A stretch of DNA of 64,000 bases, from the NCBI GenBank assembly GCA_905235555.1, contig CAJOMD010000001.1:1-64000 (forward strand), written 5' to 3'. Source of the stretch: an uncultured Eubacterium sp. Lineage in GTDB: Bacteria > Bacillota > Clostridia > Lachnospirales > Lachnospiraceae. The position numbers and the translations under genes are program-made. Numbering within the stretch: the stretch's first letter is position 1; every line of letters starts with the position of its first letter. The notes under the pieces were generated by a model that was given only the letters and a program-made list of their open reading frames with translations, did not search any database and had not been told where the DNA came from. Below are positions 7,884 through 11,386 of the stretch, in pieces.

Positions 7884-8984
7884 TTACTGTACTACTGGAA
7901 GTACAATATAAATATATGAATTATTCTCATTTCTGATGAAACATGGTGCTTTTGAATTTGTCATATACAAAGTAATTTTTTCATCTTCCAAAACTTTCAA
8001 AATATCTAAAAGGAATTTTGGATTAAAACTAATCATTAAATCTTCACCTTCTTTGGCGATGTCTATCTTTTCATCCATTGTTCCAATAAATGTATTAATT
8101 GATAAATCTAAAACTCCATCCTTAATTGTTAAGAATACTGGTTTACTTTCACCTTCTTTAATAAGAAGTGTAGCTCTATCTATACAATCCATAAACTCTC
8201 TTTTATTTATTTCAATCTTTGTCTTATAATCAGAACTAATCATTTTGTCTGTGTCAAAGAAATTAGTATCTTCAATCAATCTAGAAACAACAACTGTATC
8301 TCCTAGATCAAATAGAATATGATTGTTTGTAAAATAAATCATTACATCATCTTCCATTCCACCATTTAAAATCTTACTAATTTCATTTAATGATTTTCCT
8401 GGAATAATAACTTTACCTAAATCATATTCTTCTTTTAATTCTATATTTCTAATTGCAATTCTAAACTTATCTAATGCTACTACTTTTAATTTATTTCCTT
8501 TTATTTCAAAAAGTTCACCAGTTAAAACTTTATTTTTTTCTGCATCATTAATTGCAAAAATAGTTTGATCAATAATATTTTTAAGTGATAACTGTGAAAT
8601 ACTAACTTTATTATTTTTTTCTACTCTTGGTAGTGGAGAAAAATCTTCTGGATCCATTATCTGAATGTTAAATTTTGAATTTTCACATGTAATTAATGAT
8701 TTAGTATCATCTTCTATTTCAAATGTAATTTCACTGTCTGGAAGTTTTCGAACAATTTCTGAAAAAATTCTTGCTTCTATTGCAACCTTTCCAGCTTCTT
8801 TAATTTCACCTTTAACTTTAGTTTCTATTCCTAGATCCATATCGTTTGCAGTAAATTTAATAAATCCTTCAGTAGCATCAATTAAAATACATTCTAAAAT
8901 TTTCATAGAAGATTTAGTTGACACTGCTTTCATTACAACATTGATTCCTTCAATTAAATCTGATTTTTTAAATAGTAATTTCAT
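7884..8984 (-). CDS. dnaN: DNA polymerase III sliding clamp, beta subunit
   Basis: The beta clamp is a ring dimer that tethers DNA polymerase to template and docks many replication proteins. The 366-residue length matches three repeated clamp domains. The start MKLLFKKSDLIEGIN and the C-terminal end YIYIVLPVVQ are close to the family pattern (usually ending LPMRL-like). The start follows AAAGGAGAAG. It is separated from dnaA by a 319-bp AT-rich spacer that probably forms one arm of oriC. Confidence 0.96.
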   Translation of the reverse strand: MKLLFKKSDLIEGINVVMKAVSTKSSMKILECILIDATEGFIKFTANDMDLGIETKVKGEIKEAGKVAIEARIFSEIVRKLPDSEITFEIEDDTKSLITCENSKFNIQIMDPEDFSPLPRVEKNNKVSISQLSLKNIIDQTIFAINDAEKNKVLTGELFEIKGNKLKVVALDKFRIAIRNIELKEEYDLGKVIIPGKSLNEISKILNGGMEDDVMIYFTNNHILFDLGDTVVVSRLIEDTNFFDTDKMISSDYKTKIEINKREFMDCIDRATLLIKEGESKPVFLTIKDGVLDLSINTFIGTMDEKIDIAKEGEDLMISFNPKFLLDILKVLEDEKITLYMTNSKAPCFIRNENNSYIYIVLPVVQ

Positions 8985-9303
8985 CCTTCTTCTCCTTTAA
9001 AATAAAAGTATAAATAAATATATATTTTTAATAATGATAATAAGGACAGTCAATATGATAAAAAGTATCAAAAATCCTTTATTTATCGTATATATATAAT
9101 AAAAATTAAGGTTAATAAATTTTTAAATAATTAACAAATCACGTAAGTTATTATCAATATTATTTTATTTATAGATTATTTATGTGAATTTTTATTTATA
9201 AATCAACAAACTACAAATTTTTATTATCATTTTATTGACATAGTTATTTACTAATAAATAATAGTTATTGATAGTTTATTAATAAAGTTATTAAAAATAA
9301 AAA
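8985..9303. other. dnaA-dnaN spacer, probable second arm of oriC
   Basis: This 319-bp, extremely AT-rich spacer has no ORF. It contains one exact TTATTGACA (9232-9240), the near copy TTATTGATA (9265-9273) and TTATGTGAA (9180-9188). I find no TTATNCACA box on either strand by eye. In B. subtilis both the dnaA upstream region and the dnaA-dnaN spacer carry DnaA boxes, so a bipartite origin is plausible. The dnaN promoter should also lie here but I cannot place it reliably. Confidence 0.55.
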
Positions 9304-10677: not shown

Positions 10678-10977
10678 AGCCCCTCCCTAAAAAAAATGCG
10701 AAATATCGTAAAAATTCGCACATAGATATAATACACTAAAATAACAATTATTTCAATAATATTATAATTATAATAGGAAGAAACTAATAACAAAAAAATA
10801 GCTGTTTGATTTACATAATAACGATAATTGGTATACATAAAATAGTTACAAATAATAACTAAAAATATAAGTTATTGACATTATTTTATTTAAAACAATT
10901 AAAAAACCGATAAAATAAGCATATTTTTATTAACTTATTAACAATTTATTGACATAATGTATATAACCTTAACCAAA

Positions 10978-10997
10978 TTATGTAAAATTATGTAAAT
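10978..10997 (+). repeat. Tandem TTATGTAAA motif in oriC
   Basis: Two copies, TTATGTAAAA and TTATGTAAAT, sit head to tail with a 10-bp period, one helical turn. A third copy in reverse orientation is at 10809-10818. The same core followed by C recurs at intergenic sites to the right. It is a candidate initiator or regulator binding site. Confidence 0.5.
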
Positions 10998-11147
10998 TAT
11001 TAGTAAAAATAAGGAAAATTATTTAAAAATGTTAATAAATCACAAAAATCTATGTGATTTTTAAAATAATCTACTTATTTTGAATTAAAAAATCCTTTGG
11101 CTGAGGCTCCTGATTATAAAAAAATCATTGTATATAGTAAAAAGTCA

Positions 11148-11176
11148 TTGAAAAATATAGGAAAGTATGGTTTAAT
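11148..11176 (+). promoter_or_regulatory. Putative promoter of the rpmH operon
   Basis: TTGAAA (11148-11153) and TTTAAT (11171-11176) are separated by 17 bp, about 75 nt upstream of rpmH. The match is fair, not perfect. Confidence 0.45.
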
Positions 11177-11251
11177 TTATAACTAGCTACGAATTCTTAC
11201 ATTTATATAGTAAAGATGTTTTGCTATTAATAATGAAGGAGGTAAATTGTT

Positions 11252-11386
11252 ATGAAGATGACTTTTCAACCAAAGAAAAGACAAAGATCAAAAGAACATG
11301 GTTTTAGAAAAAGAATGAAAACTGCTGGTGGACGTAAAGTTTTAGCTTCAAGAAGAGCTAAAGGTAGAAAGAAGATATCAGCTTAA
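11252..11386 (+). CDS. rpmH: 50S ribosomal protein L34
   Basis: L34 is a small basic protein of the large ribosomal subunit. The 44-residue product reads [20 protein letters not shown] and ends GRKKISA, the standard L34 pattern. It is too short for the ORF track. The start follows AAGGAGG at ideal spacing. It is the first gene to the right of oriC, and a hairpin directly after its stop codon separates it from rnpA. Confidence 0.98.

Follow-up and report, generated by a model that had tools for sequence, protein, structure and literature searches.

DnaA and its box are regarded as all but universal among bacteria, and origin finders look for TTATNCACA. In E. coli DnaA, helix 434-451 reads the TnCACA part of the box and Arg399 reads TTA, and a T435M mutant is defective in box binding (PMC5742627). 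The basal unwinding system combines boxes with DnaA-trios, of which three or more lie no farther than 16 bp from a box (PMC8287927). Putative TTATTAACA DnaA boxes have been described for Mycoplasma hominis, M. arthritidis, and M. mobile (PMC2751442). The boxes of Epsilonproteobacteria have a TTCAC core and reflect a preference unlike that of E. coli, for which the authors suspect substitutions at positions 435, 438, and 439 of recognition helix 5 (PMC5043019), and in Thermotoga maritima DnaA the base-reading residues are not conserved save one arginine (PMC7561715).

We analyzed a 64-kb stretch of DNA (the window) from a draft genome of 1.41 Mb in 65 contigs, whose closest relatives with a name are assemblies of Lachnospiraceae, for example Lachnospira sp. 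UBA3790, and compared it with 126 distinct dnaA loci from the family and order. The window carries rpmH, dnaA, and dnaN (Table 1), and the chromosome origin is placed at dnaA because the GC skew switches sign there. The dnaA product belongs to the DnaA family, with matches to PF00308 (AAA+ domain, E 3.8e-61) and PF08299 (C-terminal Bac_DnaA_C helix-turn-helix, E 4.7e-20). It is the single full-length DnaA found by a search of the genome.

Table 1. Features of the dnaA region (window coordinates) and of the second box cluster (genome and locus coordinates).
Feature	Position	Strand	Basis or remark
dnaN	7884-8984	-	
dnaA-dnaN spacer, further boxes	8985-9303	.	
Predicted DnaA box TTATTGACA, dnaA-dnaN spacer	9232-9240	+	Clade relatives have CTACTGACA
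Box-like TTATTGATA	9265-9273	+	Kept in clade; weaker candidate
dnaA	9304-10677	-	Pfam Bac_DnaA + Bac_DnaA_C
Codons G-K-T-H-G-N-I-I-Y-G, turn and start of altered recognition helix	9391-9420	-	Alignment; model
rpmH-dnaA spacer, main part of oriC	10678-11251	.	GC skew switch and box triad
Inverted TTATGTAAA	10810-10818	-	Conserved in clade
Predicted DnaA box TTATTGACA	10872-10880	+	Invariant in six clade genomes
Triad box1, TTATTAACA	10935-10943	+	TTATTGACA in 4/5 clade relatives
Triad box2, TTATTGACA	10946-10954	+	Invariant in clade
Triad inverted box3, TTATATACA	10958-10966	-	Homologous to inverted TTATCCACA/TTATCAACA in relatives
TTATGTAAAATTATGTAAATTATT, two TTATGTAAA copies (10978 and 10988)	10978-11001	+	24-bp block fully conserved in clade
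Predicted DnaA box TTATTAACA	11030-11038	-	Relatives have TTGTTGACA there
rpmH	11252-11386	+	
murC-dnaD cluster	G000:C5:64612-64843 (L141:6613-6844)		Same spacer in L155-L194

The recognition helix of the window DnaA is altered at its start. E. coli D433-H434-T435-T436 is replaced by T-H-G-N and the turn before the helix is one residue shorter, so that the base-reading residues D433-H434-T435 (E. coli numbering) become T-H-G and only the His is retained. In an AlphaFold2 model of domain IV (mean pLDDT 91), the recognition helix begins at this conserved His, and the model superposes on the DnaA-box complexes of E. coli (1J1V, rmsd 0.9) and M. tuberculosis (3PVP, rmsd 0.8), showing the same fold. 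The helix starts with DH[ST]T in 98 distinct loci of the family and order, with NHAT in 12 loci of the same genus, with THAT in one species of the same genus, and with THGN, together with the one-residue loss in the turn, in the window and five close relatives. The THGN group is referred to as clade A and the NHAT sister species in the same genus as clade B. In a tree of 61 DnaA proteins, the THAT species is basal in the genus, and the THGN and NHAT groups are sisters. The genomes of the THGN clade (G000, G001, G003, G011, G020, and G021) are about 1.1-1.7 Mb in size, versus 1.8-2.9 Mb in those NHAT and THAT species for which dnaA was read, so the second step in specificity falls together with a reduction of the genome. 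One genome, G002, has two dnaA loci, L019 (G002:C140) and L017 (G002:C48), one with an altered and one with a canonical helix; the second is probably foreign sequence, because G002 is listed at 8% contamination. Four other Lachnospiraceae loci (L128, L130, L138, and L140) have the helix KR[KN]NH[ST]TVIH and very few recognizable boxes near dnaA.

Given the contacts in E. coli, of helix 434-451 with TnCACA and of Arg399 with TTA, a change of residues 433-436 is expected to affect the TnCACA half of the box and to spare TTA. The boxes match this expectation, with the TnCACA half altered and TTA unaltered. As the first-pass annotation had stated, the spacers flanking dnaA contain no canonical box. 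TTATNCACA is absent from both spacers and also from the rest of the 64-kb window. The recurrent nonamers that it had picked out instead are all present where it had placed them, namely three copies of TTATTGACA, each followed by T, the near copies TTATTAACA (10935) and TTATTGATA, and two direct copies and one reversed copy of TTATGTAAA; it had overlooked two minus-strand sites, TTATATACA at 10958 and TTATTAACA at 11030 (Table 1). In the spacers of the six clade genomes, which are close kin so that the counts are not independent, TTATTGACA occurs 17 times, where dinucleotide shuffles give a mean of 0.20 (maximum 2), and TTATGTAAA occurs 18 times, where they give 0.64 (maximum 3). The enrichment is local, since the genome-wide counts in 1.41 Mb (24 for TTATTGACA and 54 for TTATGTAAA) are not above those of reversed-pattern controls (41 and 58, respectively). 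TTATTGACA and TTATTAACA are enriched at dnaA in all relatives sharing the altered helix.

A triad of boxes lies upstream of dnaA throughout the family (box1, box2 at +11, and inverted box3 at +23), and its sites in the window start at 10935, 10946, and 10958. Alignment of the six clade genomes shows that the sites at 10872 and 10946 are invariant, and the others turn over, mostly to related spellings. Base 6 of TTATNxACA differs between helix types, and in the dnaA spacers it is C547 A157 G9 with DH[ST]T, A57 C11 G2 with NHAT, and G17 A8 C0 with THGN. The majority base per genome is C in 78 of the 98 DH[ST]T genomes, A in 12/12 NHAT genomes, and G in 5/6 THGN genomes (one tie); an A majority is also seen in 10/98 genomes with ordinary DnaA. 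At box1 and box2 of the triad, base 6 is mostly C with DH[ST]T, A in 22/22 NHAT sites, and G in 10/12 THGN sites, while box1 shows no difference at positions 1-4 and 7-9 across the NHAT and THGN sites of this homologous triad. In a reading by eye of the sequence after box2, no clear run of DnaA-trios was seen. One relative, L022 (G038), has 28 TTATCCACA copies in its dnaA-flanking spacers, far above the others.

Such a shift could also come about if the altered DnaA merely tolerated other bases at position 6 and AT-rich spacers drifted away from TTATCCACA. The spacers of this genus are the most AT-rich of the set, ordinary DnaA tolerates A at base 6, and clade A uses both A and G. However, in thirty DH[ST]T loci whose spacers have at most 27% GC, base 6 stays mostly C (C177 A54 G2), and these GC-matched canonical relatives show that AT drift is insufficient and lead us to reject it as the sole cause. 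Moreover, a change from C to G adds no AT, the C at position 8 and the rest of box1 are invariant, random drift would not keep A in 22/22 sites, and the same shift is found at a second locus (see below). We therefore regard relaxation combined with drift as an unlikely explanation of the whole, and favor a change of DnaA specificity.

A search of the genome with TTATTRACA reveals one other dense cluster, of four sites in 232 bp outside the window, which sits between murC and a DnaB_2/DnaD-like gene that is followed by a DnaI-like ATPase gene. Because this locus played no part in forming the hypothesis, it is the strongest test that we ran. The murC-dnaD spacer of relatives with ordinary DnaA contains tandem TTATCCACA copies at 9-bp steps, and the homologous positions are occupied by TTATTAACA in the NHAT clade and by TTATTGACA-TTACTGACA-TTATTRACA in the window clade. 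Base 6 at this locus is C in 63/72 sites of the family, A in 36/38 sites of clade B, A18 G17 C0 in clade A, and A4 G2 in the THAT species. In both the triad and the murC-dnaD alignments, related 9-mers are thus repeated at places homologous to known boxes, as DnaA boxes in the broad sense are. No canonical cluster is found elsewhere in the genome, where the 24 TTATCCACA copies are scattered with no two within 5 kb. The murC-dnaD cluster is itself family-wide and lies in the promoter region of the dnaD-like and dnaI-like helicase-loader genes, where DnaA may control loader expression or be titrated.

These alignments bear on two further explanations of the TTATTGACA sites. The sites contain TTGACA and could be -35 promoter elements rather than DnaA boxes, and the TTGACA at 9235, followed by AATAAT after 16 nt, is the best promoter-like match of the region. 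This copy is antisense into the 3' end of dnaA and reads CTGACA in sister genomes, and a promoter scan finds no -10 partner for the two other TTATTGACA copies; since the only copy with a -10-like partner is antisense and not conserved as TTGACA, the -35 reading fails and was rejected. The tandem arrangement of the murC-dnaD copies at 9-bp steps and the homology of the TTATTGACA sites to TTATCCACA also speak against it, and we consider it extremely improbable. Alternatively, a different protein could have taken over the re-spelled sites, the change in the DnaA helix being unrelated. The association does amount to two changes on one tree, and the binding of DnaA to the sites is a prediction; however, the TTAT..ACA form, the orientation, and the spacing are retained at two loci, the only full-length DnaA is the altered one and no canonical cluster remains for it, and the changed bases fall in the part of the box that is read by the changed helix (PMC5742627). 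A takeover by another protein is accordingly given very little weight, and TTATTRACA is almost certainly, judging from its homology and its match with the helix, the DnaA box of the window organism.

The first-pass annotation had proposed that, of its two nonamers, one serves as the true DnaA box and has changed along with the recognition helix. This proposal holds for TTATTGACA/TTATTAACA, which take the place of TTATCCACA at homologous sites of two loci and track the helix type, and fails for TTATGTAAA, which is unchanged between helix types. A reversal of these roles, with TTATGTAAA as the changed box and TTATTRACA as something else, might be argued from the local enrichment of TTATGTAAA, from its fully conserved 24-bp block at 10978-11001, from its retained TTAT, and from its place, in relatives, within the spacing series of the boxes. 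But TTATGTAAA starts 11 bp past the start of box3 in 21 of the 71 canonical triads, beside intact TTATCCACA, and the base-by-base consensus at that offset in 63 canonical origins is TTATGTAAA itself; in the window clade it is found 20 and 30 bp past box3, not 11. Single and inverted TTATGTAAA copies also occur in the murC-dnaD spacer of both canonical and altered relatives, and the spelling is constant between helix types, whereas TTATTRACA sits where TTATCCACA sits in relatives. Because TTATGTAAA is shared with relatives that have canonical DnaA, it was rejected as the changed box, and we find the reversed assignment highly implausible. On the pattern of its occurrence, TTATGTAAA is a separate, older, family-wide origin element next to the box triad. 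It may be bound by another protein, or else be a weak site for DnaA, recognized chiefly via TTAT.

Taken together, the sequence at these sites has changed, the sites are homologous one by one, and their spelling matches the helix type. The reading that we favor, at a probability of about 85%, is that this lineage uses the box TTATT[G/A]ACA, its specificity having moved with a rewritten helix and both oriC and the second cluster having been re-spelled. Domain IV would still read the TTAT half and the A-C-A end. The start of the helix would have been rewritten from the usual DHTT, to NHAT in the sister species and to THGN with the loss of one turn residue in the window clade, and the preference at base pair 6 would have shifted first from C to A and later to G or A, base 5 also changing from C to T. 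The origin architecture would be unchanged, with the same sites and the same spacings in a new spelling, at oriC and at the cluster upstream of the dnaD/dnaI operon, and DnaA is predicted to bind the re-spelled sites. We only infer that the shift is due to residues 433, 435, and 436 together with the shortened turn, since T435A alone does not force the switch and the picture in distant NHAT lineages is mixed or uninformative. Taken by itself, the NHAT step could in part be relaxation, because ordinary DnaA already goes with A at base 6 as a common second form. Each helix step occurred once in the genus and the genome counts are not independent, so the case is carried by the agreement of two loci and many homologous sites.

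Repeats of the helix change were also sought with DNA patterns in the order and phylum, and no clean second origin of the switch was found among the order and phylum matches, in which the DHAT lineages are mixed or canonical and the distant NHAT lineages have few or no boxes. Among the lineages with DHAT, that is T435A alone, L147 stays canonical with 10 TTATCCACA copies, and L148-L151 and L154 are mixed. Base 6 is C3 A2 G1 in L146, which has a distant NHAT DnaA. Two distant phylum members, L201 and L202 (G784 and G483), whose DnaA has NHAT (GGRNHATVLHAC), show no TTATNNACA in the available flanks, and they are a possible independent case with a different box.

In a single genus of gut bacteria, an almost universal protein-DNA code of bacteria thus appears to have been spelled anew by nature. 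An essential initiator seems to have changed along with its main sites, and the starting, intermediate, and final states can be aligned at two loci within one family. It can therefore be tested by what route a regulator that serves many essential sites alters its specificity, which residues determine base 6, and whether there are DnaA/oriC pairs blind to each other; in such genomes, a prediction of origins from boxes can fail. We lean, with some reserve, toward a change of DnaA specificity that took place naturally and in steps, from C to A to G at position 6, with living intermediates and carried through in parallel at both box clusters that the genome shows, and with DnaA/oriC pairs within one family that perhaps no longer recognize each other. 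A literature search, which covered few subscription papers, listed no paper that has TTATTGACA as a DnaA box and one relevant precedent for TTATTAACA, that of M. hominis; for the G6 form and the aligned stepwise series, no precedent was found. The window clade resembles the canonical system of DnaA and TTATNCACA, as in E. coli (1J1V) and B. subtilis (8btg), in its domain fold, which superposes on 1J1V at rmsd 0.9, in the TTAT half, and in the tandem and inverted layout near dnaA; it differs in having G or A rather than C at base 6, THGN rather than DHTT, and a turn shorter by one residue. The M. hominis group, compared by box spelling only, has the spelling of the sister clade, with T at base 5 and A at base 6, but it is an unrelated group with one or two predicted boxes, no G6, and no aligned stepwise series. 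In Epsilonproteobacteria, base 5 is fixed as T, base 6 is still C, and D433 and H434 are kept, whereas the window clade changes base 6 and residue 433. In Thermotoga maritima the change is ancient and the box is different and longer, whereas the genus of the window has changed one or two positions within a genus, with living intermediates.
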